From positions 1 through 41,854 of the forward strand of contig DAHUXW010000091.1 in the NCBI GenBank assembly GCA_027306925.1: a stretch of DNA of 41,854 nucleotides. The letters run 5' to 3'. Position numbers and translations under genes: made by a program. Below are positions 17,226-32,276 of this stretch, piece by piece. The notes below the pieces were generated by a model, which saw nothing but the letters and a program-made list of their open reading frames with translations, was not told the DNA's origin and ran no database searches. How positions within the stretch are numbered: the stretch's first letter is position 1; every line of letters starts with the position of its first letter. This DNA comes from Acidimicrobiaceae bacterium. Lineage in GTDB: Bacteria > Actinomycetota > Acidimicrobiia > Acidimicrobiales > Bog-793.

Positions 17226-17590
17226 TCAGAACCCGGGGAAGACGGGCACGAGCTCCACGAGCAGACACCCGCCTCGCGCGCCGGATCGCGCGCGGGATGC
17301 TGCCCGCCGAGACGTCCGTGGACGAGCCGGAGGAGCGCCTCCGCGGGCATCTCGATCGACCGGGCGGATCCCTCGTCGCCGCCGGGCTCGAGGCGGAACG
17401 TTGCGAACTGCTCGGCGTCGAGTCCCTCGAACCGCGAGGCGAGCGCGTCGTCGGCCGAGATGCCGCGCGTCACCTGTTCGACCGGCGCCAGTGCGTTCCG
17501 CGCGTCCCGGATCGGGCCGAACTGCTCGGGTCCCGGCGCCGGAGCGCGCCGACCCACGCGGGCGCCCGCGCGTCGGCTCGCGTCTAGTTG
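17226..17590 (-). pseudogene. Frameshifted gene remnant of unknown function
   Basis: Between the chaperone gene and lhgO a minus-strand frame shows strong third-position GC and protein-like sequence (EQFGPIRDARNALAPVEQV, then LASRFEGLDAEQFATFRLEP). Near 17275 the coding signal switches to another frame that ends CLLVELVPVFPGF and a TGA at 17226-17228. A single-base indel would join the two. I find no good start codon; an ATG at 17689 in the first frame would overlap the chaperone gene. I do not recognise a family. It is either a decayed last gene of the redox operon or an intact gene carrying a sequencing error. Confidence 0.4.
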
Positions 17591-17675
17591 CCCGGTTGTC
17601 CCATGGGCCAGCTCCCCCTCGATCGCTCGGCGGTGCGGTCCGCGTCGTGCGGCGGCACGGCCCTGCGACCCGCCG

Positions 17676-18584
17676 TCAGCACGCCGCACCGAGCGCGGCG
17701 GCGAGACCCGCGCCGGTCGTCGTGGCGCGCGCCGACCACCATCGCGCCGGGTCGGCGGCGGCTCCCGGGATCGCGGCGCGATCGTGGATCCCGGCCCAGC
17801 GCCCGGCCTCGGCCGCGAGCCATGCGAGCGCTCCCTCCGGCTCCTGGTCGATGAGCGCGCCGAGCGCGTACCGGCGCTCGCCGACGCGCATGCCCGCGCC
17901 GAGCGCTGACGCCGCGGCGCGCAGCCTCGACCTCGTGAGCACGATGCCGGCGCGCAGTGGGACGGTGACCGAGGTGAGCACGTCGTCGCGTCCGAGCGGC
18001 GGGTGCGGGCCTTCGGGCGCCAGGCGGAGCGCGAGGGGGAGCCGGGCCGGCGGGGCCGCGGCGGCCACCTCGTCGGCGATGCTCCGCATCAGCAGGCTCG
18101 CCCACGCGGTGGCCGGCGGGCGGTCGAGCTCGCAGACCGCCGCGAGGTAGCCCGGGACCCAGCTCCAGAGATGCTCGAACAACAGCGCCTCGCACGACCG
18201 GCGCGACGCGCTCCGCGCCGCGCCGGAGCCGGCGCGCGCGCCCGCCTCGCCGAGGTACGCGTACAGGTCGAGCAACGTGGCGAGGTGGTCCGGCTCGCGC
18301 GACGGCGCGAGGTCGAGCGCCCGCGCGAAGCCGGCGGCCCGGTCGGCCGCGTCGCCGCCGAGCATCCCCTCGGCCCCGAGATGGAGCGACGCGTAGGGCG
18401 GGCATTCCAGCACGAAGACCTCGGTGTGCACCTCCGCGGTGAACGGCTCCAGCCCGAGCGCGTCCTCGACCCGCCGGCGGGCGTCGCCCTGAAGCGACGG
18501 GACCGCCCCGAGCGCCCGGAGCAGCTCGAGGCGTGCGATGCGGCGCGTGCGGTCGCCGGGGGCGAGGTCGTCCGCGACGCTCAT
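17676..18584 (-). CDS. TorD/NarJ-like molybdoenzyme maturation chaperone
   Basis: A 302-residue mostly helical protein overlapping the molybdoenzyme gene by ATGA. The segment VLECPPYASLHLG and the downstream SREPDHLATLLDLYAYLGEA match the conserved core of the TorD superfamily (E-P-x-x-Y region and EPDHL motif). These cytoplasmic chaperones bind the molybdoenzyme apoprotein and help insert the Mo/W cofactor. The protein is longer than typical TorD (about 200), with an extra 100-residue C-terminal extension. Its position immediately after the catalytic subunit supports a dedicated role. As the enzyme has no Tat signal, a purely maturation role is likelier than export proofreading. Confidence 0.82.
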   Translation of the reverse strand: MSVADDLAPGDRTRRIARLELLRALGAVPSLQGDARRRVEDALGLEPFTAEVHTEVFVLECPPYASLHLGAEGMLGGDAADRAAGFARALDLAPSREPDHLATLLDLYAYLGEAGARAGSGAARSASRRSCEALLFEHLWSWVPGYLAAVCELDRPPATAWASLLMRSIADEVAAAAPPARLPLALRLAPEGPHPPLGRDDVLTSVTVPLRAGIVLTRSRLRAAASALGAGMRVGERRYALGALIDQEPEGALAWLAAEAGRWAGIHDRAAIPGAAADPARWWSARATTTGAGLAAALGAAC

Positions 18585-21517
18585 CGCGCGCGGGCGCCGG
18601 GCGGAAGCTCGAAGAGCGCGCGGGCGGGCTTGAGCGGCCGCATGAGCCAGGTCGGCCGCCGCAGGCCGTCCGGGCTCACCTCGTGCGACGGCCGGGTCAT
18701 CGCGAGCCACTCCGCGTAGACGGCACGCGACCGCCCCGTGTCGACCGCGATGTCGCCGTGGCGGTCGTCGGGGAGCGCCGGGCGCACGCGCACCGCCTGG
18801 TGCCAGCAGTGCATGCCCGAGATCGGGTCGGGATGGACGGGGAACGTGAGATTCTGGTGCACGCCGGTGTCGCTCCACCAGATCCGGGCAGTGTCCGGGT
18901 CGGCGGACTCGTGCGGGGCGACCGACGACCGGCGTCTCATCGCCCAGCCCTCGCCCGAGCGCGCGAGGTCCACGGTCGCCATCATGGCCCCGAGCCCCCC
19001 GGGCTCGCCGGCGAGGCGCCACCGGCCCATGTGGTGGCTGCACGCGACGACGCCGGGCCGGATGCCCTCGGTCACCCAGGCCTTCGCGACGAAGTAGCCG
19101 ATCGCGGTCTCGACGCGCACGAGGTCGCCGGTCGAGACCGCGAGCGGCGACGCGTCGCTCGGGTGGATCCACACGGGGTTCGTGTGCGCGATCTCGTCGA
19201 GCCACTTCGAGTTGGCCGAGCGCGTGTGGATCTGCGTCGGCAGGCGGAAGGTCGAGAGGAGCACGAGCTCGTCGGGCGCGAGCGCGTCCGGGTGCACGTG
19301 GCTGCGGATGTAGCCGGGGAGCGCGTGCTCGGGCCAGCCCCAGGACGCGAGGGTCGACGACCAGAACTCGAGGCGCCCCGACGGTGTCGGGAAGCCGCGC
19401 CGGACGACGCCGTCGACGAGGACGCCGACGGGTCGCCGACCCTGCGCGTCCGGCTCGGGTGCGCCCTTCGGGACGATGTTCGGGTCGGCCGGCGCGGGGC
19501 TCGCGCTGTACGCGCGTCCGGTCGGATCGGTCGCGACGTCGACGAGCTCGGCCTCCGGGACCGCTTCGTCGTGGCGCGCGCCGATCTTCGTCGCGACCTC
19601 GAACGCGCCGAACCGACGCATCCACTCGAGCGGCGTGACCCCGTCCGCCGCGGCGCGCTCGGGCAGGCCGGGAACCGAGTTCTCGAACATGTACCGGTAG
19701 TACTCGTCTACGGTGAGCTTCTCGCCCGGGTGCTCACGGGACTCGTGGTGCTCGCGCACGCCGAGCGACCCGTCCGGGTCGATGCGCCACGAGAGCTCGA
19801 TCCAGAACTCGTTCTCCTCCCAGACCTCGCCCGGGTTCACGTCGCGCGTGTCGGTCACGACCTCGCCGAGACGCTCGCGCGCCGCGCGCAGCACCGGCTG
19901 GCGGAACCCGACCCACTGCCCGTCGTACTGCTCGTAGGAGTGGGTGTCGTGCCGCTCCGAGCTGTGGCCCATCGGCAGCACGAAGTCCGCGAAGTAGGCG
20001 GACTCGTTCCAGGTCGGCGTCAGCGCGACGAAGCACCCGACCTTGTCCTCGTCGGTGAGCACCTCCATCCAGCTGAGTCCGTCCGGGTTGGTCCAGACCG
20101 GGTTGTAGACGCGCGTGAAGTACGTGTCGAGGCGTCCCCGGCCGTCCTTCAGGAAGTGCGGCAGCAGGAACGAGAGCTCGTTCTGCGCGAGCGGGTACTC
20201 GAGCGGCCAGGTGAGCTCCTGCCAAACGTGCGGATGCGGCGGGGTGTGGATGGGGCGCGGGACGAACTTGTTCCACGCGTTCGGGAAGACCCCTCCCTCG
20301 GTCGCGACCGCGCCGAGCAGCGCGGAGAGCAGGAACAGCGTGCGCGACACCTGCCAGCCGCCGAGGTTCCCTGCACACGCGCTCCGCCAGGTGTGCGCGG
20401 AGAACCGGTGACCGGCGGACGCGACGAGCCGGGCGATCTCGGCGAGGGACGCCGCGTCGACGCCGGACTCGGCCGCCGCGAAGTCGAAGGTGAAGTCCAC
20501 GTACAGCTCCGCGAGCACGCGCTCGAACGCCTCGAACTCGGCGGGGAGCTCCGGGTGGCACTGCCCCAGGTACTCCGCCCAGTTCCACCAGCGCCGTACG
20601 AAGTCGCGGTCGTACGATCCGGTCTCGATGATGTGGCGCGCGATCGCGAGGTTGATCGCCGCCTCGCTCCCGGGCCGGGGCGATATCCAGTGGTCCGCCT
20701 GGGAGGCCGTGTTCGACAGGCGCGTGTCGAGCACGACGAGCTTCGCACCTCTCGCCCGCGCCTCGGTGATCCGCTGCGCGTGGGGGTTAAAGTAGTGCCC
20801 CGCCTCGAGGTGCGAGCTGATGAGGTAGATCACGCTCGCGTTCTCGTGGTCCGGGCTCGGGCGGTCGATCCCCATCCAGAACTGGTACCCGGTGCGCCCG
20901 CCGCTCGAGCAGACGTTCGTGTGCGAGTTGTGCCCGTCCACCCCCCAGCTCGCGAGCACCCGCTCGGTGAACCCGTCCTCGCCCGGCCTGCCGATGTGGA
21001 CCATGATCTCGTTCTGGCGCGCCTCGACAATCGCGGCGCGGATGCGTCCTGCGATCGCGTCGAGCGCCTCGTCCCACGAGACCCGCTCCCACCGCCCCTC
21101 GCCGCGCCGGCCCGACCGCTTGAGCGGATAGAGGATCCGGTCGGGATCGACGAGCTGGTTGAGCGTCGCCGGACCCTTCGCGCAGTTGCGGCCCCGTGAG
21201 CCCGGGTGCTCCGGGTTCCCCTCGAACTTCCGGACGGTGAAGCGGTCCCGGTCGACGTACGCGAGCAGTCCACACGCGGACTCGCAGTTGAAGCACGTCG
21301 TCGGCACGAGCATGTAGCGGCGCTCTACGCGCTCCGGCCACGCGCGGGAGTCGAGCTCGCTCCAGTCGTCCCACCGCTCCTTCGGCGGGAAGGCGGCGAG
21401 GTGTATCCCGCTCGCGCCCGGGTAGAAGGTCTCGCCGCGAGCCTCGGTCGCAGACCGCGCGGCCGAGACCCTCGCGGCGACCGCGTCGAGGTCCTGCACG
21501 GCGCGTCGGCGCGTCAT
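18581..21517 (-). CDS. Cytoplasmic molybdopterin oxidoreductase (DMSO reductase superfamily)
   Basis: A 978-residue catalytic subunit. The N-terminal [4Fe-4S] site is Cys75, Cys78, Cys82 and Cys112 (TTCFNCESACG ... GRNCAKG). NVCSSGGRTGYQFWMG places a probable Mo/W ligand at Cys203. Later cofactor-binding segments include LDTRLSNTASQADHWISPRPG and the C-terminal RLPTQIHTRSANSKWL. MTRRRAVQDL lacks the hydrophobic stretch of a Tat signal, so the subunit should stay in the cytoplasm, as in SoeA-type enzymes, unlike PsrA, TtrA or ArrA. Neighbours supply a membrane anchor with four Fe-S clusters upstream (7-bp gap) and a chaperone downstream (overlap). Substrate and direction are unknown; sulfite oxidation is a candidate only by analogy. 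Confidence 0.9.
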   Translation of the reverse strand: MTRRRAVQDLDAVAARVSAARSATEARGETFYPGASGIHLAAFPPKERWDDWSELDSRAWPERVERRYMLVPTTCFNCESACGLLAYVDRDRFTVRKFEGNPEHPGSRGRNCAKGPATLNQLVDPDRILYPLKRSGRRGEGRWERVSWDEALDAIAGRIRAAIVEARQNEIMVHIGRPGEDGFTERVLASWGVDGHNSHTNVCSSGGRTGYQFWMGIDRPSPDHENASVIYLISSHLEAGHYFNPHAQRITEARARGAKLVVLDTRLSNTASQADHWISPRPGSEAAINLAIARHIIETGSYDRDFVRRWWNWAEYLGQCHPELPAEFEAFERVLAELYVDFTFDFAAAESGVDAASLAEIARLVASAGHRFSAHTWRSACAGNLGGWQVSRTLFLLSALLGAVATEGGVFPNAWNKFVPRPIHTPPHPHVWQELTWPLEYPLAQNELSFLLPHFLKDGRGRLDTYFTRVYNPVWTNPDGLSWMEVLTDEDKVGCFVALTPTWNESAYFADFVLPMGHSSERHDTHSYEQYDGQWVGFRQPVLRAARERLGEVVTDTRDVNPGEVWEENEFWIELSWRIDPDGSLGVREHHESREHPGEKLTVDEYYRYMFENSVPGLPERAAADGVTPLEWMRRFGAFEVATKIGARHDEAVPEAELVDVATDPTGRAYSASPAPADPNIVPKGAPEPDAQGRRPVGVLVDGVVRRGFPTPSGRLEFWSSTLASWGWPEHALPGYIRSHVHPDALAPDELVLLSTFRLPTQIHTRSANSKWLDEIAHTNPVWIHPSDASPLAVSTGDLVRVETAIGYFVAKAWVTEGIRPGVVACSHHMGRWRLAGEPGGLGAMMATVDLARSGEGWAMRRRSSVAPHESADPDTARIWWSDTGVHQNLTFPVHPDPISGMHCWHQAVRVRPALPDDRHGDIAVDTGRSRAVYAEWLAMTRPSHEVSPDGLRRPTWLMRPLKPARALFELPPGARAR

Positions 21518-21524
21518 CGCCTGC

Positions 21525-23051
21525 TCACGACAGCGGCACGCACTGCGCGCCCTGGACGTACGCGTGCTCGTACGCGAGGAGCCCGAGCAGCGCGAACGGG
21601 GTCGCGACGGAGCCGATCGACGGGGCGGCGATCGCGACGGCGACGGCGGCGGCGGCGGGCCAGAACCAGCGCGCGAACCGCCCGCGGACGATCTCGGTCA
21701 TCGCGAGGTGCGCGTGCGCGGTCCCGTGACCCGTCGCGGCCTCGGACGCGACGAGCACGAGGTGGACCGCCGCGGCGACGCCCAGCACCACCGCGGCCGC
21801 GTGCTCGGCGCGACCGACCGAGTAGGCGGCCGCGAGCGGGACCGTCGCGGCGGCTCCCGCGAGCAGGGCCTGTACCGCGAGGTGCGGGGCGAGAAGGGGG
21901 CTCTGCCAGAGGTCCCGCGCCTTTGCCTGGGCGAACAGGAACGCCGTGTAGCAGGCGGTCGCGAGCGCGAGCGGCCCGGCGAACGCGGCGGCGACCTGTT
22001 CGGCGCCGACCGATCCGGCCGCCCCCGCGGCGAGCGCGGCCGCGAGCGCGGCCCCGTACGCGGAGACGACGAACGCGCCGCGCACGATCCAGCTCCGCCA
22101 CTGCGGCCGCGTGAAGATCATCGTGAAGCGCATCGGGTGCTTGAGATCCCAGACGAGGAGCACGCCGGTCGCCGCGAGCGCGACGAGCCCGAGCGACGGC
22201 GCCGCAAGCGCCATGAGCGGATCGCTCCAGTCGAGCCGGCCGACGAGCACGAGGAGCAGCGGGACGAGGAAGCCACCGGAGGCGAGGCCTTTCGCGAACG
22301 TGTACCCGCTCACGCGCCAACCCCACGGCGCGACGTGGGGGACGTCGTAGGAGAGCAGCGCCGCCGCGCTCGAGTTGTGCGGACCGGGATGGCCCGCGAC
22401 CACCGAGCCCGGCCCCCCGGGTCCCTGCGTCGCCCACGCGAAGAGCCCGCCTGACGGGCGCCGGGCGGCGAGCGGATCGAGCGTCGCCTGGTGCGCGCCC
22501 TTGTAGTAGAGGCCGGGACGAGTCTCCTTCTCCGGGCGGCGGACCGCCACGGCCTCGCGCAGCACGATCTCGGCGGCCTTCGACGACGGGTCGTTGAGGT
22601 CGCCGACCACGATCGCCCCGGTCGGGCAGACCGTGACGCACGCGGGCTCGAGTCCGACGTCGACCCGGTGCGCGCACAGGTTGCACTTCTCGGCCGAGTG
22701 GTCGTCGGGGTTGATGAAGATCGCGTCGTAGGGGCACGCCGCCATGCACGCCTTGCACCCGATGCAGATCGACTTGTCGAAGTCGACGATGCCGTCCGGG
22801 CGACGGTACATCGCGCCGGTCGGGCACGCGCGCACGCACGGCGCGTCGGTGCACTGGTTGCAGCGCGTGACCTGGAACGCACGCCGCACGTTCGGGAACG
22901 TGCCGACGTCGACGGACTTCACGTAGGTGCGCGTGACCCCGACGGGCACCTCGTTCTCGCTCTTGCACGCGGTCGTGCACGCGTGGCAGCCGATGCACCG
23001 GGTCTGGTCGAGAACCTTCACCCAGCGCACCGGCACGGTGCGCGAGCTCAC
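21525..23051 (-). CDS. Fused DmsB-like Fe-S subunit and NrfD-type membrane anchor
   Basis: A 508-residue fusion of two proteins that are usually separate. Residues 1-190 hold four cysteine quartets of the DmsB/PsrB/NrfC type: C19-C22-C25-C29, C64-C67-C72-C76, C96-C99-C102-C106 and C123-C126-C138-C142. Residues about 225-508 contain roughly eight hydrophobic helices of the NrfD/PsrC family, which exchange electrons with quinones. No signal sequence precedes the Fe-S part, so the clusters face the cytoplasm. The GTG at 23051 overlaps the ferredoxin stop (GTGA). It would wire the molybdoenzyme to the membrane quinone pool. The linker (about 190-225) is Gly/Pro-rich. Confidence 0.9.
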   Translation of the reverse strand: MSSRTVPVRWVKVLDQTRCIGCHACTTACKSENEVPVGVTRTYVKSVDVGTFPNVRRAFQVTRCNQCTDAPCVRACPTGAMYRRPDGIVDFDKSICIGCKACMAACPYDAIFINPDDHSAEKCNLCAHRVDVGLEPACVTVCPTGAIVVGDLNDPSSKAAEIVLREAVAVRRPEKETRPGLYYKGAHQATLDPLAARRPSGGLFAWATQGPGGPGSVVAGHPGPHNSSAAALLSYDVPHVAPWGWRVSGYTFAKGLASGGFLVPLLLVLVGRLDWSDPLMALAAPSLGLVALAATGVLLVWDLKHPMRFTMIFTRPQWRSWIVRGAFVVSAYGAALAAALAAGAAGSVGAEQVAAAFAGPLALATACYTAFLFAQAKARDLWQSPLLAPHLAVQALLAGAAATVPLAAAYSVGRAEHAAAVVLGVAAAVHLVLVASEAATGHGTAHAHLAMTEIVRGRFARWFWPAAAAVAVAIAAPSIGSVATPFALLGLLAYEHAYVQGAQCVPLS

Positions 23052-23320
23052 CGCCCGTCGACGAGATCGGCGAACGTGAGCGGCGGGTCGATCATCCGGT
23101 CCGGGAACACGATCGTGATCGCGCTCGTCGGGCACGACTGCTCGCACAGCCCGCAGTACCAGCACTCCGCCGGGTACGCGACGACCGGCGGGTCGATCTT
23201 CGTCCGCTCGCCGCGGATGATGATGTCGCCGGGGCAGACGATGTCGCACAGCGGGCATCTGATGCACAGCTCGTCGTCGATGACGATCGGGTTGTGGCTG
23301 CGGTCGCTCGAGGCGGTCAT
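23048..23320 (-). CDS. AprB-like two-cluster ferredoxin subunit
   Basis: A 90-residue protein with two [4Fe-4S] motifs: C19-C22-C25-C29 (CIRCPLCDIVCP) and C53-C56-C59-C63 (CWYCGLCEQSCP). The CW-x-C-x2-C-x3-CP form of the second motif is like that of the adenylylsulfate reductase beta subunit AprB, though this protein is shorter than AprB (about 150). It overlaps the flavoprotein gene by ATGA and the anchor gene by GTGA. It probably carries electrons between the flavoprotein and either the four-cluster subunit or a soluble partner. AprAB-like pairs of this kind also occur outside sulfur metabolism, so function is not fixed. Confidence 0.88.
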   Translation of the reverse strand: MTASSDRSHNPIVIDDELCIRCPLCDIVCPGDIIIRGERTKIDPPVVAYPAECWYCGLCEQSCPTSAITIVFPDRMIDPPLTFADLVDGR

Positions 23321-25059
23321 CGCCCCTGCCCCGCGACATCGTCCGTCTCGACGGGGGACGAGCCCCACATGGCCTTCCAGGGACCTTCCGCCGGCCCGAC
23401 GAGCCGCTCGAGGCCGGACTCGCCCCGCCGAAGGCCGAGCACCTGGTTCCACGCGTCGTCGACCGCCGGGTAGTCGACGCGGTAGTGCGAGGACCCGCGG
23501 GTCTCGCGACGCGTCTGCGCGGCGACCGCCATCGCTTCGGCCATCGCACGGATGTTCACGGCTTCGACGATCCGGCTCGCCTCGTGGGCGTCGTGCGCCC
23601 GCAGCTCCGTCTCCATCTCGCGGAGCGCCGCGATCTGCTCGCGCGCCCGCGCGAGCCCCTCCTCGGAGCGCCTGAAGCCCACGTCCCGGGTGACGGTCTC
23701 GCGGATCGCGTCCTCGAACTCCCAGTAGGAGGTCGTACGGCGCTCGTCGAACAGCTCCTCGAGCGCGGCGCGCCCCGACGCGAACCGCGCCGCGGGGAGC
23801 TCGGCGCCCGACGTCCGCCGCTTCGCGTAGGACGCGGCGCTCGCGCCCGCGATCCAGCCGAGCGAGGACGCGCCGGCGATGCCCGCGCTCACCGTGCAGC
23901 AGTCGCCCGCGGCGTACACGCCGTCGATCCCGATCTGGCCCGACGCGTCGATCACGACGCCACTGCCCCGGAAGTACACGCCGCTGCGGCGGATGGAGAA
24001 CTCCGAGATCGAGATCTCGATCGGCTCCTCTGCGAGGACGACGCCCTTTTGCCGGAGGAATCCCGGCACCGTGTGCCGGTCGACCTCGAGGGTCCGCTCG
24101 ATGTTCGCGAGCTCGTGCGCCGGCAGGTGCCGCACGTCGAGGTAGATGGGCCCGTTGCCCTCGAGCGTCTCGCTGATCACCGCGTCGACGAGCACCGATC
24201 GGCGCGCCCGCTCGCCGAGCGGGTCGTACTTGAACATGAAGCGCTCGCCCTGCCGGTTCAGGTAGTGCGCCCCGAGCCCCGTGAGCGCGTTCGTCCCCTG
24301 GGAGGAGAACCCGGTCGGGCCGAGCGTCGCCTCGATGAACTCCATGTTCGCGAGCACGCCCCCGAGGGAGAGGGCCATCGCCTGCGCGTCGCCGGTGTTG
24401 TAGGGGCAGTGCCAGGTCGCGAACGGCATGTCCGAGACGTTCCTCGAGATGCGGTTCACGTCGCCCGTCGCCAGCACGCAGGCCTTCGCGCGGATCGCGT
24501 AGAGGTCCCCGCTGCGGATGTTCATCGCGAGCGCGCCGGCGAGCTCCCCGTCGACCTGGAACAGGTCGACGACCGAGCATCTCGTCAGGTCGTCGGCACC
24601 GGACCGGCGGACCGCTCGCGCGATCGTCTGCTTGAACTTCTTCCCGTCGAAGTCGACGTGGTAGGCGCCGGGAAGGCCGAAGGCCCGGTGGCGCATGTAG
24701 GAGTCGGCGCCCTTGTCCCGGAACCGCACCCCCGTCGCCTCGATACGGCGGAAGACGCGCGGGAGCTCGTACACCATGCGCTCGACGACCTCGAGGTCGA
24801 CGAGACCGTCGGTGAGCTGGCTCACGCTCGCCATGAGGTACGCGGGCTGGTCCCACTCCTCCTCGGTCTCGAGGACCGCCAGGAACTGGTCGACCCCGCC
24901 GCCCACGCTGCCGCTCCACGCGAGCCGGCCGCCCTTGTCGCACACGAGCACCGACGCGCCCTGCTCGCGCGCGGCGAGCGCCGCGATGCAGCCGGCGACC
25001 CCGCCGCCGACCACGAGCACGTCCGTCTCGAGCGTGTGCAGCTGTTCCCCGATCATCAC
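23317..25059 (-). CDS. AprA-like FAD-dependent oxidoreductase (fumarate reductase superfamily)
   Basis: A 580-residue flavoprotein. The FAD site VVGGGVAGCIAALAAREQG is at about 15-33 and a second FAD segment (GVYAAGDCCTVSAGIAGAS) lies at about 390. HCPYNTGDAQAMALSLGG is the AprA-branch form of the nucleotide/substrate loop. Length is near that of AprA (about 610-660) and of soluble succinate dehydrogenase/fumarate reductase flavosubunits. The paired ferredoxin overlaps by ATGA. Either of two consecutive Met codons could start it; I give the first, with GAGG 8 nt upstream. It probably oxidises or reduces the imported organic anion or a product of it, which is inference. Confidence 0.88.
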   Translation of the reverse strand: MMIGEQLHTLETDVLVVGGGVAGCIAALAAREQGASVLVCDKGGRLAWSGSVGGGVDQFLAVLETEEEWDQPAYLMASVSQLTDGLVDLEVVERMVYELPRVFRRIEATGVRFRDKGADSYMRHRAFGLPGAYHVDFDGKKFKQTIARAVRRSGADDLTRCSVVDLFQVDGELAGALAMNIRSGDLYAIRAKACVLATGDVNRISRNVSDMPFATWHCPYNTGDAQAMALSLGGVLANMEFIEATLGPTGFSSQGTNALTGLGAHYLNRQGERFMFKYDPLGERARRSVLVDAVISETLEGNGPIYLDVRHLPAHELANIERTLEVDRHTVPGFLRQKGVVLAEEPIEISISEFSIRRSGVYFRGSGVVIDASGQIGIDGVYAAGDCCTVSAGIAGASSLGWIAGASAASYAKRRTSGAELPAARFASGRAALEELFDERRTTSYWEFEDAIRETVTRDVGFRRSEEGLARAREQIAALREMETELRAHDAHEASRIVEAVNIRAMAEAMAVAAQTRRETRGSSHYRVDYPAVDDAWNQVLGLRRGESGLERLVGPAEGPWKAMWGSSPVETDDVAGQGR

Positions 25060-25092
25060 GTGAACCTCATCCTCCTCAGATCACCGCCGGCC

Positions 25093-25133
25093 GGTCCCGG
25101 TGCGGCGCCGCGTGGCCGCGCCGCACCGGGACC
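25093..25133 (-). terminator. Intercistronic hairpin after the tctC-like gene
   Basis: Perfect 16-bp arms (GGTCCCGGTGCGGCGC at 25093-25108; complement at 25118-25133) with a 9-nt loop. It lies 26 bp after the solute-binding-protein stop and 33 bp before the flavoprotein start. No T-tract follows. It may partially terminate or protect the 3' end of the transporter mRNA, leaving less message for the redox genes. Confidence 0.65.
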
Positions 25134-25159
25134 CGTACCCTCTCGCGCCCTCGCGGGCC

Positions 25160-26260
25160 TCAGCCTCCCGCCGCCTTCAGCGCCGCGCGCAGAAGCGGCA
25201 GGTACGGCGTCACGTCCTTCACGATCCCACTGATCTGGCTCTGCTCGTTCACGCCGCTCAGGTAGTGGAGCGTCGCGCCCACCTTCGCCTCGGCCGCGCG
25301 GAACGCCGGGTCGCTGTACATCTTGCCGATCGCGTGGCGAAGCGCCGTGACGGCGGACTTCGGCGTGTTCGGCGGGACGAAGTAGCTCCCTTCGATGCTG
25401 ACGAGGTTGGAGAACGCGCGGACCAGGCCGGCGTTCGTGGTTCCCGACAGCGACACCCAGGACGGAAGCGAGCTGTAGGCCTTCGGGACGCTCCCCGTCG
25501 TCTCGAACATGATCGGTCGCACGAGGTGCGCCTGGATCGCCGGGAGCAGCGAGGTGAGCGATCCCTCGGTGAGCTCGGTCGCTCCCGAGGCGAGCGAGTC
25601 GACGACCGCCGCCTGGCTTGCGAAGCCGCTCACGTACTCGGGCGTGAAGCCGAGCGTGTGCGCGAGGGCGACGACCGTGTAGAAGGTGTCGTCGAAGCCG
25701 CTCAACGGCACGAGCACCTTCTTGCCCCGCAGCTGCGACGGGCTCGTGATCCCGCTCTTGTTCGACACGACGACCACTCGCGGGCTCGCCGTGAGCCGCC
25801 CGAGGTACATGAACTCGCCTGCGTTGTAGCTGATTCCCTGGCCGCCCACGATCGAGGTGAGCAGGGCGACGGGGACGTTTGTGTACCCGACCGTCAGGCC
25901 GTCGCGCGGGGCGTTCCAGAGCTGGTCGAGGCCCACGACGCCGCCGGCGCCCGTGACGTCGATCAGCTTCATTCCCGCTGCGCCGAGCGCGTGCTGGAGG
26001 AACGGGACGGCCGCCCGCGCCGTCGTGTCGATGTTGCCGCCCGGGGCGTTCGGCACGAGGATCGTGACGGTCTTGCCCCGGTAGTAGTTCGGCGAAGCGG
26101 CGTGCGCCGACGCCGCTCGCGGGGCGCTCGCGAGGGCGGGAACCGTCGCTCCGCCGACGAGCGCCCCGATGGCGAGCGCCCCGCCGGCCACGAGGCGACC
26201 GCGCCTCGGCCGTCCCCGCGCCGTCGACCGGACACCACTCGTATGCATGCTCCTCAACAT
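25160..26260 (-). CDS. TctC-type solute-binding protein (tripartite tricarboxylate transporter)
   Basis: A 366-residue exported binding protein. The N-terminus has an Arg-rich region (RGRPRRGR), a hydrophobic core and an Ala-rich cleavage region; Sec or Tat export is possible. The mature part begins with NYYRGKTVTILVPNAPGGNIDTTAR, the TctC/Bug-family signature in which VP-x-APGG binds a carboxylate through water. GAGGVVGLDQLWNAPRDG and the C-terminal PPNTPKSAVTALRHAIGK also fit the family. It binds an organic anion outside the membrane and delivers it to the TctA/B unit encoded just upstream. The ATG at 26260 has GGGAGG 4 nt upstream; a second Met at codon 5 also has GAGGAG. Confidence 0.93.
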   Translation of the reverse strand: MLRSMHTSGVRSTARGRPRRGRLVAGGALAIGALVGGATVPALASAPRAASAHAASPNYYRGKTVTILVPNAPGGNIDTTARAAVPFLQHALGAAGMKLIDVTGAGGVVGLDQLWNAPRDGLTVGYTNVPVALLTSIVGGQGISYNAGEFMYLGRLTASPRVVVVSNKSGITSPSQLRGKKVLVPLSGFDDTFYTVVALAHTLGFTPEYVSGFASQAAVVDSLASGATELTEGSLTSLLPAIQAHLVRPIMFETTGSVPKAYSSLPSWVSLSGTTNAGLVRAFSNLVSIEGSYFVPPNTPKSAVTALRHAIGKMYSDPAFRAAEAKVGATLHYLSGVNEQSQISGIVKDVTPYLPLLRAALKAAGG

Positions 26261-26379
26261 GGATCCTCCCGATTCGCGTCCAGCATCTCGAACCGGCGCC
26301 GCGCGGTTCGCGTGCGCCGCACTCACTCCGTCCCGGCGCCGTCGCCGGTCCGGGTCCTCCGGGTTGCTTCGGTCGGTGT

Positions 26380-28677
26380 TCAACTGGGCAGGAAATGCAC
26401 GAAGCCCACGTACGGGGCGTACTCGTTGATAAGGAAGTGGAACAGGAGCCACACGGCCATCCCGACCACGACCGTGACCGCGGCGCAGTACACGATGGAC
26501 TTGCGGCGGACGACGAGGCCGTAGAGGCCGAAGCCGAGCCCGGTCGCGGGGACGATGCCGACGAGGAACGCGAGCACGAAGAACGTCCCGACGGTCGCGA
26601 CCGCGCGGGTGACCGCGTGGCGCGCCGGCGCCGTGGTGTCCTCGAGCGGTTCCGGCGCACCCGGCGTCTCGACGACCTCGACCTCGACCCTGGTCGCGAC
26701 CGCGCCTGCAGCGGCCCCCACCACGGGCTCGTCGGCGGTCGACCCGGACGGCACGGCCTCGCCGGGACCGGGAGCGGCACCCAAGAGCACGAGCTCCGGA
26801 GCGTTGAGGGCCCGGCCGACCGGTCCCTTCCCCGAGCTGCGAAGTCGCTCGCCGACGCCCAGCTCCTCGACCTGCCCGTGGACGAGGAGGCGCACGAGGT
26901 TCGCGAGCGCGAGGGCCGCGCCCACGCCCGAGACGAGCAGGAGGTCGCCGCCCGTGAGCGAGCCGTAGGTGCGCGCGATCAACGCGACGACGACGAACCC
27001 GGCGAGCAGGAGCACGGCCGCGATCGTGGGCCCGTCCGCGCGCGACTTGAACGTTGCGATGCGACGGCCACCTCGGGTGCGCGACGCCGCGGCGGGCACG
27101 TCACCGGGGACATCTCCGGGCACGTCCGGGGTGCGGCGACGCTGCTTCGCGACGCGCACCCCCCAGGTCGCAAGCGTGAGCAGGATCGCCGCGAAGATCG
27201 CACCGGCGAGCGGGCGCTTGAACATGAACCCGTCGCCGTAGAGCGTCGTCGAGATGTGGAGGTTGCTCTCGATGATCGGGCCGAGCACGAGACCGATGAT
27301 GAGGTTGATCCTCGAGTAGTTGAACTTCCAGAAGAAGTAGCCGAGTATGCCGATCACGCCGGTCGTCACGACGTCCCCGAACGACCCGTTCACCGCGAAG
27401 CTCCCGACGACCGAGACCGTGAGCACGAGCGGGATGAGCGTCGTCTTCGGGATCGTCGTCAGCTTCGCGAACTGCTTCGCGAACACGAGGCCGATGAGCA
27501 TCATCGCGAGGCTCGCCCCGACGATGAGCCAGATGATCGAGAAGACCGTGGGGAGGTGGTTGCTGAGCATCGCCGGCCCCGGCGCGATGCCGAGCGTCAC
27601 GAAGGCCGCGAGGAGGATCGCCTGCTGCTCGTGGGTCGGGATGCCGAGGCTGAGCAGCGGGAGCATCCCGCCGCCCTCCGCGGCCGACTCGGTCGCCTGG
27701 GGGGCGATGACGCCCTCGATCGCGCCGAGCCCGAACTCGACGTCGGACTTCGAGTACTGGGCCGCCTGGCCGTACGCCGCGACCGCCGCGACCGGCGCGC
27801 CGAAGCCCGGGACGGTGCCGGTCAGGACGCCGAACGTCGCCATGTAGAGCTCGAGCTTCCAGTGCCGGAGGACGGCACCGAGGCCGTGCAACGAGGTCCT
27901 CGTGCCCCGAAGGTCGCCGAGGTTCGGCCGGAGCCCGCCCCGGGCGCGGGCGACCTGCGCGGACCGCTCGGGCCGCCGGACGCCGCGACGAAAGCGGTCC
28001 GGCTCGGCGACCAGCCGCATGACCTGCACGACCGCGAACAGGCCGATTGCGACGTCCGCGACGGGAACGCCGCTCGACAGGTAGAGCGAGCCGAACGTGA
28101 GCCGGTTGACGCCCGTGATCGGGTCCTGGCCCACCCAGGACAAGATGATGCCGACGCCGAACGCGAGAAGCCCTTTCGTGAGGTTGCCCGAGCTCAGGAT
28201 CGCGATGAGGATCGCGCCGAGGAGCGCGAGCAGTAGCACCTCGGGCGGCCCGAGGTAGTCGAGCAGGCTGCGCATCACCGGGATCCCCACGGTGAGCGCG
28301 ATCGCGCCGCACACGCCGCCGATCCCCGAGGCCGACGCGGACGCGCCGAGCGCGTAGGCCCCCTTGCCCGAGCACGCGAGCGGGTAGCCGTCCCAGCAGA
28401 GCGGCAGGCTCTTCGCCGACGCCGGGATGTCGAGCGTGATGCTCGTGATCGAGCCGCCGAAGTACGTCGCGATGTGCGTGCCGAGCAGGAGCGCGAGCGC
28501 GACCGGGAGGCTCAGCTTGTACATGAAGGGCAGGAGCAGCACGAGCGCGACGTTCCCGCCGACGCCGGGCATGAACGAGATGAGCATCCCCCAGACGATC
28601 CCGATGCTCAGGCCGGCGAGCGTCGCGAGGCTGATGATGCTGTTCAGCCCCGAGAGTGATGCGTGCAGGTACGTCAC
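26380..28677 (-). CDS. Fused TctA-TctB membrane transporter
   Basis: A 765-residue protein joining the large TctA permease (about 1-520) to a TctB-like small subunit (about 560-765); most bacteria encode these separately. TctA features are GMLISFMPGVGGNVALVLLLPF, the repeated-half counterpart FGVLTGTVPGFGAPVAAVAAYG, and GSITSITLDIPAS. The C-terminal part has four predicted helices split by a long hydrophilic, Pro/Ala/Glu-rich loop (about 620-690), probably cytoplasmic. The transporter is a secondary, cation-coupled importer working with the binding protein. GTG at 28677 is used; its ribosome binding site is weak, while the leader upstream is long and structured. Confidence 0.9.
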   Translation of the reverse strand: MTYLHASLSGLNSIISLATLAGLSIGIVWGMLISFMPGVGGNVALVLLLPFMYKLSLPVALALLLGTHIATYFGGSITSITLDIPASAKSLPLCWDGYPLACSGKGAYALGASASASGIGGVCGAIALTVGIPVMRSLLDYLGPPEVLLLALLGAILIAILSSGNLTKGLLAFGVGIILSWVGQDPITGVNRLTFGSLYLSSGVPVADVAIGLFAVVQVMRLVAEPDRFRRGVRRPERSAQVARARGGLRPNLGDLRGTRTSLHGLGAVLRHWKLELYMATFGVLTGTVPGFGAPVAAVAAYGQAAQYSKSDVEFGLGAIEGVIAPQATESAAEGGGMLPLLSLGIPTHEQQAILLAAFVTLGIAPGPAMLSNHLPTVFSIIWLIVGASLAMMLIGLVFAKQFAKLTTIPKTTLIPLVLTVSVVGSFAVNGSFGDVVTTGVIGILGYFFWKFNYSRINLIIGLVLGPIIESNLHISTTLYGDGFMFKRPLAGAIFAAILLTLATWGVRVAKQRRRTPDVPGDVPGDVPAAASRTRGGRRIATFKSRADGPTIAAVLLLAGFVVVALIARTYGSLTGGDLLLVSGVGAALALANLVRLLVHGQVEELGVGERLRSSGKGPVGRALNAPELVLLGAAPGPGEAVPSGSTADEPVVGAAAGAVATRVEVEVVETPGAPEPLEDTTAPARHAVTRAVATVGTFFVLAFLVGIVPATGLGFGLYGLVVRRKSIVYCAAVTVVVGMAVWLLFHFLINEYAPYVGFVHFLPS

Positions 28678-28824
28678 CGTCCGCCGACCGATCTCCGCCG
28701 AGCGGCGTCGTCGACCCCCACAGGCTCAGCGCGCAACTTGCCCCCCCCGTGCTCGTGCCGCTCGGCCCGCACCCCCACGGCCGCCGACGGCCCCTGCTAG
28801 CTCACCGCAGCATTCCGAGTTCCA

Positions 28825-28862
28825 CCCGGGCCGGAGCGTCGAGCTCGACTCGCCGGCCCGGG
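28825..28862 (-). other. Large hairpin in the transporter operon leader
   Basis: CCCGGGCCGG (28825-28834) pairs with CCGGCCCGGG (28853-28862). Inside lies a second palindrome, GTCGAGCTCGAC (28838-28849), giving a nearly continuous 19-step stem broken by two mismatches. It sits about 150 nt upstream of the GTG start, downstream of the predicted promoter. It could attenuate transcription, stall ribosomes or mark a protein-binding site. It could also end readthrough from the epimerase gene. Confidence 0.6.
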
Positions 28863-28984
28863 CAGTTGCACGCACCGCCGCCCGGGGCCTGCCCGGGAAC
28901 GCGGTGTCGACGACGACGGCGCAGCGCGTGCGAATCGCACGAGCCCGTCGCAGGCGCCTTCCCCTACCTGAGGTCTCTCTTCCG

Positions 28985-29002
28985 AGGTCTGACCTTTGAC
29001 CT
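28985..29002 (-). promoter_or_regulatory. Candidate repressor operator at the transporter promoter
   Basis: AGGTC-T-GACCT (28985-28995) is a perfect palindrome. A TGACCT at 28997-29002 directly repeats the right half (28990-28995). Further AGGTC/ACCT half-sites lie at 28966-28976. The palindrome covers the predicted transcription start, a classic repression position. The form is compatible with FadR/GntR-type or similar dimeric regulators; the regulator is unknown. Confidence 0.55.
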
Positions 29003-29031
29003 ACCCTAGTGACCGCGACGCGTCCGGTCAA
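29003..29031 (-). promoter_or_regulatory. Promoter of the tctAB-tctC-redox operon
   Basis: On the minus strand: TTGACC (-35, at 29026-29031), exactly 17 bp, TAGGGT (-10, at 29003-29008). The same TTGACC-N17-TAnnnT pattern occurs at both promoters of the muropeptide locus. Transcription should start near 28996. Confidence 0.65.
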
Positions 29032-29089
29032 CAGTCGATCGCGCCGGAAATCCGCGGAGGTCGGGAGCGCGCCGACCGGCCGCCCCGCG

Positions 29090-30181
29090 TCAGGGGCCGG
29101 CGAAACGCTCGAGGTCCGTGTGGCCGAGCCCGGGACCGTCGCCGAGCGCGACCCGACCCGCCTCAAAGGTCGCGCCGCCCGCGGCGACGACGCCCGCGAG
29201 CCACCACGGCGCGTCGAGGTCGACCGAGGTGACCTCGACGCGGCCCGCGGCGAGGCATGCGGCGGCGGTCGCAGAGATGTTCGCCTCCATCATCGACCCG
29301 ACCGAGCACTCGATCCCGGCCGCGCGCGCGGCCGCGAGCATCGCGAGCGCCGGACGGATTCCTCCCGACTTCATGAGCTTCACGTTGATCGCGTCGGCAG
29401 CCCGCCGCCGAACGAGCTCGACGACGTCTGCGGGCGAGAAGCAGCTCTCGTCCGCCATCACCGGCGTCTCGACCGACGCGGTCACGTACGCGAGCGCGTC
29501 GAGGTCGCGCGCCGGCACCGGCTGCTCGACGAGCTCGATCCCGAGGCCGGCGTCCTCGAAGCGACGGATGAGCGCGACCGAGCCCTTCGCGTCCCACGAC
29601 TGGTTGGCGTCGACGCGGATCCGCACGAGGTCGCCGACGCGAGCTCGCACCGCCGCGACGCGCGCGAGGTCGAGCGCAGCGGGACCTCCGAGCTTCACCT
29701 TGAGCACCGAGAAGCCGTCGTCGACGCGCCGGGACGCGGCGTCCGCCATGACGTCCGGCGGCGCGAGCGAGACCGTGACGTCGGTGACGAGCTCCTTCCG
29801 GGCACCGCCGAGCAGCCGGTGGAGCGGGGCGTCGAGCGAGCGTGCCCACAGGTCGTGGAACGCGACGTCGACGGCGGCCTTCGCGCTCGCGTTCCCGACG
29901 ATCGCGCGCGACATGCCCTCGAGCGCCGCGTCGATCTCGTCCACCCGTCGGCCGACCACCGCGTCACCGAGCGGGCCGCCCACCGCCGCGACGATGCTCG
30001 CGCGCGTCTCGCCGGTGATCTGTGGCGTCGGGACGGCCTCGCCGATCCCCACGCGCCCGTCGGTGTCGCGAAGCGCGACGACGACGCCACCGACCGCCGT
30101 GACCGACCGGAGCGCGGTCACGAACGGCTCGCGGAGCGCGAGCTCGTAGGGCGTGACCGTGACGGTGGCGACAGACGTCAC
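29090..30181 (-). CDS. L-Ala-D/L-Glu epimerase (dipeptide epimerase, enolase superfamily)
   Basis: A 363-residue member of the muconate-lactonising subgroup. The catalytic K-x-K is in VLKVKLGG, the metal ligands in RVDANQSW, ELVEQPV and MADES, and the second catalytic Lys in INVKLMKSGG. The C-terminal DLDAPWWL is the substrate-recognition motif of L-Ala-D/L-Glu epimerases, which contact the dipeptide amino group. It would convert L-Ala-D-Glu from cell-wall stem peptides to L-Ala-L-Glu for ordinary peptidases. It follows murQ-nagA after 31 bp and uses a GTG start with a weak ribosome binding site. Context strongly supports the muropeptide role. Confidence 0.9.
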   Translation of the reverse strand: MTSVATVTVTPYELALREPFVTALRSVTAVGGVVVALRDTDGRVGIGEAVPTPQITGETRASIVAAVGGPLGDAVVGRRVDEIDAALEGMSRAIVGNASAKAAVDVAFHDLWARSLDAPLHRLLGGARKELVTDVTVSLAPPDVMADAASRRVDDGFSVLKVKLGGPAALDLARVAAVRARVGDLVRIRVDANQSWDAKGSVALIRRFEDAGLGIELVEQPVPARDLDALAYVTASVETPVMADESCFSPADVVELVRRRAADAINVKLMKSGGIRPALAMLAAARAAGIECSVGSMMEANISATAAACLAAGRVEVTSVDLDAPWWLAGVVAAGGATFEAGRVALGDGPGLGHTDLERFAGP

Positions 30182-30212: not shown

Positions 30213-32276
30213 TCACGGAACGGCGACCTCCCGGCCGTGCCGGTACACGCGCTCGAGCGCGAGGTCGTCGTCGAGGACGAGCAGGTCGGCCGGCGCTCCG
30301 GGGTACAGCTGGCACACGGGCTCGCGTCCGAGCAGGCGCGCGGGCACGTCGGTCGCCGCTCGGATCGCCGCCGCGCGGTCGATGCCGAGCCTGGCGAGCA
30401 GGCGCAGGCCGTCCCTCAACCGCCCGACGCTGCCGGCGATCGTGCCATCCGCGCGGCGCGCGACCCCGTTCTCCACGGTGACGGTCACCTCGCCGAGATG
30501 CACCGTCCCGTCGTGGGTCGCCGCAGCTGCGATCGCGTCGCTCACGATTGCGCAGCGTCCGGGCGCCGCCGCGAACGCCAGCCGGATGAGGTCGTCCGCG
30601 ACGTGGACCCCGTCGGCGATGAGCTGGACGACGATGCCGGGTCGGGCGAGCGCGGCGCCCGCGAGCCCCGAGAAGCGCGCGCGCACCGGCTCCATCGCGT
30701 TGAACAGGTGCGTGACCGCCCCCGCCCCCGCGTCGAACGCGCGGCCGGCCTCGTCGCTCGACGCCGCGCTGTGCCCGAGCGACACGACGACCCCACGACG
30801 ACGGCACCGCTCGACGAGGTCGATCGCGCCGGGAAGCTCCGGAGCGATCGTGACCATCGTCACGTCCCCGGCGTCGAGGAGCCGGTCGAGAAGCGCGGGA
30901 TCCGGCGCCAGCAGCCGGTCCGCCGGGTGGGTGCCCGAACGCGCGGGCGCGAGGAACGGACCTTCGAGATGCACGCCCAGGATCGACGCTCCCACGCCTC
31001 GCCGAGCCGCCTCGCCGAGGAGGCGCTCGGCGCGCAGCGCTGCGTCGGGCGCCGAGGTGATGATCGTCGGCAGGTACGCCATGACTCCGTCGCGCAGCAG
31101 CGCCTCGCCCATCGCGAGGAGCGCGTCCACGTCCGCGTCGAGCACGTCGACGCCCGCGTACCCGTTGACCTGCGCGTCGACGAGTCCGGGCACGGCGTAC
31201 CCGGAACCGCCGCCCGACAGGCCGACCGCGGCGATCTCGCCGTCGCGCAACGCGACGTCACCGGGGACGAGCGCGCGCCCGACCATCGCGGCACGGACGC
31301 CGAGCCGGGTCCATCCCTGCGGCGCCGTCCGTCGCGCGGGCCGAGCCGCCGAGCGGTCGTGGAGCGACGCGAGCGCGGGCCGGAGCTTGCCGCCGAACCG
31401 GTCGAGGAGCTCGGCTGCGGCCGCAGGAGCCAGTCCGCCGGCCGCCATCACCGCGGCGACCTTCGGGCGCCATCCGCTCGCCTCGAGCGCGATCGTCGCC
31501 TGGGCGTGCGTCGTGCCGACGACACCGGCGACGATCCGAGCCGCGCGATCTCGCAGCTTCGCGTTCGTCGGTCGCAGGTCGACCATCAGGTTCCCGTACG
31601 TCTTGCCGAGCCGGACCATCGCGGCCGTCGAGATGGTGTTCAGGACGACCTTCTGCGCCGTCCCCGCGTTCAGCCGAGTCGATCCCGCGACGACCTCGGG
31701 GCCCACCGGCACCTCGATCGCCACGTCCGCGGCCGCCCCGAGCGGAGAGCCCGTGTTGCACGCGACCGCGACCGTCAGCGCGCCGGCACGGCCGGCGGCC
31801 TCGATCGCGGCGAGCACGTACGGCGTGCGACCGCTCGCGGAGATGCCGACCACGGCGTCGCTCGGCGAGATGCCGAGTGCGCGCATCGCCGCTCCTCCAC
31901 CGGCGCGGTCGTCCTCGGCGTTCTCGACGGCGACCCCGAACGCGCCACTCCCGCCCGCGAGGACGCCGACGACCTGGCCCTCGGAGGTGTTGAACGTCGG
32001 CCCGGCCTCGGCGGCGTCGAGCATCCCGAGGCGGCCGGCCGTGCCGGCGCCGACGTACACGAGCCGCCCGCCGCGCTCGAGCCGGCCGACGACCCCGGAG
32101 ACCGCCTGCGCGATCGCACCCTCGACCGACGAGAGCGCAGCGGTCACGCGACCGACGTCCGTGCACATGAGGTTCACGAGCTCCTCGGTCGAGAGCTCGT
32201 CGAGGTGAGCGAGCTCGGGCCGCACCTGCTCGGTCCCGAGGCCGGCGAGCTCGCCGACGTCCCCGCCCTGCGTCAT
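30213..32276 (-). CDS. MurQ-NagA fusion: MurNAc-6-P etherase and GlcNAc-6-P deacetylase
   Basis: A 687-residue bifunctional enzyme. Residues about 1-300 are MurQ: VYVGAGTAGRLGMLDAAE and VENAEDD carry the two acidic catalytic residues, and GISASGRTPYV and TRLNAGTAQK bind the phosphate/sugar. It splits MurNAc-6-P into GlcNAc-6-P and D-lactate. Residues about 318-687 are NagA: VDAQVNG (Q-x-N metal-site variant as in E. coli), GVHLEGPFLAP, LGHSAASSDEA, THLFNAM and VSDAIAA. It deacetylates GlcNAc-6-P to GlcN-6-P. The fusion joins two consecutive steps. An Ala/Arg-rich linker (about 297-318) connects them. It overlaps the hydrolase gene by ATGA. Confidence 0.93.
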   Translation of the reverse strand: MTQGGDVGELAGLGTEQVRPELAHLDELSTEELVNLMCTDVGRVTAALSSVEGAIAQAVSGVVGRLERGGRLVYVGAGTAGRLGMLDAAEAGPTFNTSEGQVVGVLAGGSGAFGVAVENAEDDRAGGGAAMRALGISPSDAVVGISASGRTPYVLAAIEAAGRAGALTVAVACNTGSPLGAAADVAIEVPVGPEVVAGSTRLNAGTAQKVVLNTISTAAMVRLGKTYGNLMVDLRPTNAKLRDRAARIVAGVVGTTHAQATIALEASGWRPKVAAVMAAGGLAPAAAAELLDRFGGKLRPALASLHDRSAARPARRTAPQGWTRLGVRAAMVGRALVPGDVALRDGEIAAVGLSGGGSGYAVPGLVDAQVNGYAGVDVLDADVDALLAMGEALLRDGVMAYLPTIITSAPDAALRAERLLGEAARRGVGASILGVHLEGPFLAPARSGTHPADRLLAPDPALLDRLLDAGDVTMVTIAPELPGAIDLVERCRRRGVVVSLGHSAASSDEAGRAFDAGAGAVTHLFNAMEPVRARFSGLAGAALARPGIVVQLIADGVHVADDLIRLAFAAAPGRCAIVSDAIAAAATHDGTVHLGEVTVTVENGVARRADGTIAGSVGRLRDGLRLLARLGIDRAAAIRAATDVPARLLGREPVCQLYPGAPADLLVLDDDLALERVYRHGREVAVP

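Follow-up and report, generated by a model that had tools for sequence, protein, structure and literature searches.

Three kinds of described system resemble parts of the locus analyzed here. Among tripartite tricarboxylate transporter (TTT) systems, SlcHFG imports sulfolactate, with tctB lying after tctA (PMC5812351), and TctCBA of Advenella imports 3,3'-dithiodipropionic acid (DTDP), with sulfite being released there (PMC5373536). Of the sulfite-oxidizing SoeABC complexes, the SoeC subunit has been reported from Proteobacteria, Clostridia, and Aquificae (PMC8076601), and a similar genomic assignment of Soe-type genes was made for Sulfobacillus (PMC4378227). Finally, the adenylyl sulfate (APS) and 3'-phosphoadenylyl sulfate (PAPS) reductases, i.e., AprAB and the enzyme of M. 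thermolithotrophicus, share a flavoprotein fold and a two-cluster ferredoxin partner. We analyzed a 41,854-nucleotide stretch (contig DAHUXW010000091.1, hereafter the window) from the genome of an uncultured actinobacterium of the Acidimicrobiaceae (2.87 Mb, 97.6% complete), which contains a seven-gene operon joining a TTT importer, a flavoprotein-ferredoxin pair, and a Soe-like molybdoenzyme. The parts are known, and a literature search of titles, opening lines of abstracts, and selected passages found no TTT-flavoprotein-Soe operon. The main addition to the initial annotation of this DNA is the adjacency of Tct and Soe-like genes in a second genus.

The seven genes run consecutively on the minus strand from 28677 to 17676, as the initial annotation stated, in the order TctA with a TctB-like tail, TctC, flavin adenine dinucleotide (FAD) flavoprotein, ferredoxin (module A, genes 1–4), iron-sulfur (FeS)-NrfD fusion, molybdopterin oxidoreductase, and TorD-type chaperone (module B, genes 5–7). 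Intergenic distances from gene 1 to gene 7 are 119, 103, −4, −4, +7, and −4 nucleotides (nt). The claim that the last five genes are coupled by ATGA/GTGA overlaps or a 7-bp gap was confirmed at each junction: flavoprotein and ferredoxin share a 4-nt ATGA overlap, a 4-nt GTGA overlap between the ferredoxin and the FeS-NrfD gene bridges the two modules, 7 nt separate the FeS-NrfD and molybdoenzyme genes, and the molybdoenzyme and chaperone genes again overlap by ATGA (4 nt). A promoter/terminator scan of 17300–29200 gave no sigma-70-like promoter or terminator match. A gapless 19-nt inverted repeat, 89% complementary, lies at 28825–28862 in the 412-nt region 5' of the first gene and is a possible operator.

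We tentatively propose that this is a single operon for the use of an organosulfur carboxylate, the sulfite from which would then be oxidized by the Soe-like enzyme; we regard this as possible, if short of probable. The proposal draws on the gene content, the translational coupling across the module junction (GTGA), the sulfur-gene company of genes 5–7, the recurrence of genes 1–4 in a genome that also has Soe-like genes, the Tct–Soe adjacency in two genera, and the TTT precedents for sulfolactate and DTDP; from these we infer the sulfur-containing substrate, the reaction directions, the desulfonation step, and the electron partner. The substrate, for instance a carboxylic acid that carries a sulfo, sulfino, or thio group and at least two negative charges, would be bound by TctC and imported with a cation by TctA/TctB. 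The flavoprotein would oxidize (or reduce) a C–C bond of the acid via a retained arginine of the succinate dehydrogenase (SDH) type, exchanging electrons with its two-cluster ferredoxin, and cleavage of the carbon-sulfur bond, directly or after activation, would free sulfite in the cytoplasm. The cytoplasmic molybdoenzyme would turn sulfite to sulfate and feed the electrons into the quinone pool through the fused 4x[4Fe-4S]/NrfD subunit, and the ferredoxin, for which the operon provides no separate anchor, might share that subunit. It seems unlikely, on the other hand, that the whole of a more specific scheme applies, in which the ferredoxin-coupled SDH-superfamily flavoprotein dehydrogenates a sulfocarboxylate, the C–S bond breaks, and both electron streams share the one FeS/NrfD subunit. 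Few desulfonation chemistries are known and, to our knowledge, none with a ferredoxin-linked SDH-type flavoprotein. The linkage provides candidate genes for organosulfur use by uncultured actinobacteria.

Genes 1–4 are kept in order in a genus-mate, JA1.bin31 (genome G664, locus L072), at 66.6, 64.4, 74.8, and 85.9% identity to the window, respectively; the Soe-like genes of that genome are 69% (FeS-NrfD) and 78% (molybdoenzyme) identical to those of the window. In a genome of another genus (G679, 68% complete; locus L134), a TctA-TctB gene with 64% identity to that of the window and 71% to that of L072 is divergent from a Soe-like operon, LVIVD-LysR-SoeBC-SoeA-TorD, with TauE beyond; the contig stops just past a possible TctC start. 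This Tct permease was seen in three genomes, with no genome-wide permease search, and Soe-like genes adjoin it in two of them in different arrangements. Such adjacency in two genera and two arrangements favors a joint function on the strength of just three genomes; a single ancient linkage followed by rearrangement is no less possible than two linkages. A flavoprotein search gave nothing in G679, which its incompleteness and the contig end could explain. The LVIVD-repeat protein is 70.5% identical between L134 (13577–14854) and L072 (462–1751) and divergent from TctA-TctB in both; neither the window nor any other locus compared at that point has a match to it. Also near the L134 operon is an SsuA/NMT1-type receptor (L134:2–967) that scores below the SsuA_fam cut-off.

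Genes 5–7 have an anatomy and gene company that support their assignment as a cytoplasmic sulfite-oxidizing Soe-like complex, of predicted activity. The FeS-NrfD fusion matches Fer4_11 (E 8.2e-25) and NrfD (E 1.6e-14) in Pfam, with 16 cysteines within residues 1–165 and seven hydrophobic segments beyond residue 250. The molybdoenzyme contains one 4Fe-4S site and by profile best matches PsrA and ArrA. Its residue C203 aligns with the cysteine that is the molybdenum ligand in those two enzymes and is invariant in 18/18 rows, whereas Arg177 sits at the GR of ArrA in the alignment, where PsrA has GH. The predicted structure is poor (predicted local distance difference test score, pLDDT, 64.7) and its fold matches were left unused. 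Its N-terminus shows a hydrophobicity maximum of 0.38 in residues 1–60 and no signal like those for twin-arginine translocation (TAT), which together with the NrfD and PF02613 matches bears out the annotation of a cytoplasm-facing molybdoenzyme with membrane anchor and chaperone. A chaperone gene was also found beside the close molybdoenzyme clade.

In these respects the complex resembles SoeABC of Allochromatium vinosum and Aquifex aeolicus: it shares a molybdenum subunit that has a single FeS site and lacks a TAT-like signal (PMC8076601, PMC10100899, PMC6620896), a four-cluster FeS part, an NrfD-type anchor, a cysteine at the molybdenum position, and sulfur-gene neighbors (PMC8076601, PMC10100899). 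SoeA itself is described as having no TAT signal (PMC6620896), and the cysteine is given for it (PMC10100899). Unlike SoeABC, the window encodes the B and C subunits as one polypeptide, includes a TorD-type chaperone gene, and comes from an actinobacterial lineage. We use the label SoeABC-like and no more because the trees hold only this family (and an Azoarcus relative in one tree) and no studied SoeA. Plasmid searches for a named SoeA returned the module's own family and other molybdoenzymes, with no confirmed SoeA among them. One of the plasmid molybdoenzymes we take to be Arx-type from the arrangement of its neighbors.

At E 1e-100, the molybdoenzyme is found in 40 of 396 genomes of the phylum; within the family, 21 of 35 genomes have it, at up to 79% identity (own genome included in both counts). 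Its plasmid relatives, with 50–61% identity, come from Thermomicrobium roseum, Rhodococcus jostii RHA1, and haloarchaea. A branch of Soe-like enzymes in which B and C are fused is present in the phylum, Thermomicrobium, and haloarchaeal plasmids. We counted neighboring genes by tblastn in 32 Soe-like loci, comprising that of the genus-mate and 31 from the phylum (of 39 other genomes with a match; the locus of G490 was dropped as too short, and seven more were not retrieved); many of the fetched stretches stop at contig ends. At least one sulfur gene lies near the module in 24/32 loci versus 0/20 control stretches (12 of the same genomes). The genes concerned are those for SulP (16 loci), metallo-beta-lactamase (MBL)-rhodanese (15), sulfide:quinone oxidoreductase (SQR, 8; the query covers general FAD/NAD oxidoreductase domains only and was named SQR by eye), DsrE (5), TauE (4), and TusA (4). 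None of the six is found in the genus-mate's Soe-like locus. As the queries were drawn from Soe-like loci themselves, which favors matches there, the count was repeated on family loci fetched later, available for 15 of the 19 other matching family genomes besides the genus-mate; eight of these 15 have a sulfur gene (seven MBL-rhodanese, one TauE). The queries also match three of six named plasmid loci, i.e., R. jostii pRHL3 (DsrE, TusA, and rhodanese) and two haloarchaeal ones (rhodanese and an annotated TauE).

It is highly unlikely that the molybdoenzyme acts on another substrate, by thiosulfate or polysulfide reduction or by arsenite or thioarsenate oxidation. PsrA and ArrA are its nearest solved relatives, with Arg177 at the GR of ArrA, and Soe-like genes are arsenite-induced in Thioalkalivibrio (PMC6620896); ars-type genes also lie close to the G664 module (by eye) and to the Azoarcus relative. 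However, ACR3/ArsC are matched in only 1/32 Soe-like loci, plus ACR3 in the Azoarcus locus, the enzyme has no TAT-like signal, and the sulfur neighbors point to sulfite oxidation. Beyond the Soe-like module of the genus-mate, and separated from it by one gene, come genes judged by eye to encode ArsR, an ACR3-type permease, and an ArsC-like protein (L083:11336–13584).

The importer belongs to the TTT family by sequence, through both TctA and TctC. TctA matches PF01970 over residues 23–461 (E 1.4e-104, Pfam), and TctC, although unmatched in Pfam at E 1e-3, matches solved TctC/Bug receptors in the PDB (best E 1.2e-6) and has a single hydrophobic segment at its N-terminus. The annotated TctA-TctB fusion is firmer in its first half: besides TctA, no Pfam family, TctB included, matches the 765-residue protein at E 1e-3, and the TctB-like label comes from position and four hydrophobic segments beyond residue 540. 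Like SlcHFG and Advenella TctCBA, in which a TTT importer adjoins catabolic genes for an organosulfur acid (PMC5812351), the window places its importer beside putative catabolic genes, and its putative TctB part follows TctA in the manner of SlcHFG. It differs from both in that TctA and this putative TctB form one protein, the companions are a flavoprotein and a ferredoxin, the operon has no desulfinase-type gene, and no Xsc scores over its cut-off in the genome.

The flavoprotein is a member of the superfamily of SDH, fumarate reductase (FRD), and AprA (FAD_binding_2, PF00890, E 2.9e-42, Pfam). Sequence and fold comparisons with the PDB both rank the PAPS reductase alpha subunit first (8a8o_A, TMq 0.85 for the fold); for the predicted fold (pLDDT 79), SDH/FRD come next and AprA is at rank 21. 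The initial description as AprA-like holds for the fold and fails for the score and catalytic residues: TIGR02061 scores it at 79.3 bits, where the cut-off is 641.75, and the AprA active-site pattern is missing. We aligned ten subgroup rows with E. coli SdhA, FrdA, NadB, and three AprA proteins. The column of SdhA Arg286 holds arginine in 10/10 subgroup rows and alanine in 3/3 AprA rows, and the PAPS reductase alpha subunit aligns a threonine there; the AprA motif GPVGAWFLLFK is absent from the subgroup. This position alone cannot separate the families, because leucine occurs there in another, more distant flavoprotein of YF2.bin99, and arginine in a second, AprA-like protein of Desulfosporosinus (L087) that scores below the AprA cut-off. 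Assignment to SDH/FRD also failed, since of H242, H354, R399, and R286 of E. coli SdhA the window protein matches only R286; in some distant members of the subgroup an Arg or His occurs close to the R399 or H354 stretch, a gapped part of the alignment. SdhA H45, the covalent FAD site in SDH, is replaced by glycine in 10/10 subgroup rows. Compared with SDH, FRD, and L-aspartate oxidase, then, the window flavoprotein keeps Arg286 within the same superfamily but differs in its Gly at H45, in the other three positions, and in having a small ferredoxin as partner. By its active-site residues it is a separate subgroup, neither AprA nor SDH/FRD, which could perform C–C dehydrogenation.

The ferredoxin has eight cysteines (19, 22, 25, 29, 53, 56, 59, and 63) and a Fer4 match. 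It was annotated as AprB-like, and the PAPS reductase beta subunit is indeed found among its matches (best 60 of 85), but it is a generic 2x[4Fe-4S] protein, the top matches (among the same best 60 of 85) being polyferredoxins of formylmethanofuran dehydrogenase.

The flavoprotein is rare. It is found in 2/298 genomes of the order at E 1e-60, including its own (the other protein is 37% identical), in 1/396 of the phylum, which is its own genome, and in 2/35 of the family, both of one genus; plasmid searches gave nothing at 1e-60 or 1e-30. A scan of species genomes returned nine loci, of which the eight besides L072 are only 35–40% identical. Ten neighbors of distant flavoproteins (L073, L075, L077, and L080) include TRAP-DctM, TctC, NMT1 receptors, Amidohydro_2, aspartate dehydrogenase, and a molybdopterin enzyme. 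Locus L077 (7127–16415), from a marine Rhodospirillaceae metagenome-assembled genome, combines the same three kinds of part as the window with a different molybdoenzyme: a flavoprotein relative (36% identity) lies between a divergent molybdopterin enzyme, with PhsA as its best NCBIfam match below cut-off, and TctC, and the locus also has a TctB-sized open reading frame, TctA, and an aspartate-dehydrogenase-like gene.

Several observations weigh against the proposed organosulfur pathway. The surroundings of the distant flavoprotein relatives resemble those of ordinary organic-acid catabolism; none of the ten neighbors scanned is a sulfur gene, and none of the six sulfur neighbors occurs in the whole 41.8-kb window. 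SQR-like and MBL-rhodanese genes are present in other parts of the genome, so the sulfite may come from sulfide. The organosulfonate route suggested initially, with sulfite oxidized by a SoeABC-like enzyme, retains the Soe-like anatomy, the sulfur neighbors, and the TTT precedents in its favor, but lacks a desulfonation enzyme: Xsc, the only one sought, gave no match over cut-off in the window's genome or in G664. An alternative is that a sulfur-free di-/tricarboxylate or aromatic acid is imported and dehydrogenated by the flavoprotein and ferredoxin, with the molybdoenzyme as a separate sulfite or persulfide detoxification unit sharing the transcript. This is rather doubtful, though it agrees with the TctC, TRAP-DctM, NMT1, and Amidohydro_2 genes adjoining the distant relatives, with L072, which has genes 1–4 without genes 5–7, and with the listed substrates of TTT systems, mostly carboxylates (PMC5812351). 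It is at odds with the Tct permease adjoining Soe-like genes in two genera and two arrangements, and with the absence from the window flavoprotein of counterparts of the carboxylate-binding SdhA residues H242, H354, and R399.

Further points against the organosulfur pathway concern the linkage of the modules. Genes 1–4 are matched at E 1e-6 in 0 of 38 Soe-like loci (31 from the phylum, the genus-mate's, and the six named plasmid loci), and 14/15 of the later family loci have none of them. Synteny of the separate modules only, which the initial annotation held would argue against one pathway, describes 38/38 loci and is broken by 1/15 family loci. In the genus-mate, genes 1–4 and the Soe-like genes are on different contigs. 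Within the genus of G679, two nearly complete genomes gave no flavoprotein match, and their Soe-like loci (L145 and L146) are not accompanied by Tct genes. A first tree placed the window and genus-mate proteins as sisters for genes 5 and 6, which was undone once family rows were added: in the resulting tree, of the molybdoenzyme only, the genus-mate falls in a six-member clade with other genera (100/99) and the window outside it. The placement of the window molybdoenzyme may reflect replacement or transfer of genes 5–7.

The family-row tree led us to weigh the organosulfur pathway lower and chance co-transcription higher, i.e., that rearrangement placed Soe-like genes behind an unrelated Tct-flavoprotein operon, with no joint function. 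We still consider chance quite unlikely. Consistent with it, the window molybdoenzyme is not sister to that of its genus-mate, 52/53 other Soe-like loci have no Tct genes, the LysR-type neighbor seen in the genus-mate and matched in 7/15 family loci is missing in the window, and genes 1–4 in L072 are followed by two transposase-like genes (by eye), then the contig end. The exact translational coupling and the second, differently arranged adjacency in G679 speak against it.

Table 1. Genes of the operon in the window, listed from gene 1 to gene 7 (aa, amino acids).
Feature	Position	Strand	Basis
TctA permease with C-terminal TctB-like tail, 765 aa, GTG start	26380..28677	-	PF01970, hydrophobicity
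TctC/Bug-type extracytoplasmic solute receptor with signal segment, 366 aa	25160..26260	-	PDB TctC/Bug matches
FAD flavoprotein, SDH/FRD/AprA superfamily, own subgroup, 579 aa	23317..25056	-	PF00890, fold, residues
2x[4Fe-4S] ferredoxin, 90 aa	23048..23320	-	Fer4, 8 Cys
4x[4Fe-4S] subunit (SoeB/PsrB-like) and NrfD anchor (SoeC/PsrC-like) fusion, 508 aa, GTG start	21525..23051	-	Fer4_11, NrfD
Molybdopterin oxidoreductase catalytic subunit (SoeA/PsrA/ArrA-like), 978 aa	18581..21517	-	PF04879/PF00384/PF01568
TorD/NarJ-type molybdoenzyme chaperone, 302 aa	17676..18584	-	PF02613 E 1.5e-11

The genes at higher coordinates encode a muconate-cycloisomerase-like enzyme and SIS-domain, beta-lactamase-like, and AnmK proteins, with no evident tie to the operon. 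At 33367–34749, a GNAT acetyltransferase domain is fused to a GntR/UTRA regulator. The SIS-domain protein (30213–32276) is MurQ-like by eye, with a long C-terminal part that is NagA-like by eye, and its gene likely forms a cell-wall recycling cluster with that for AnmK.

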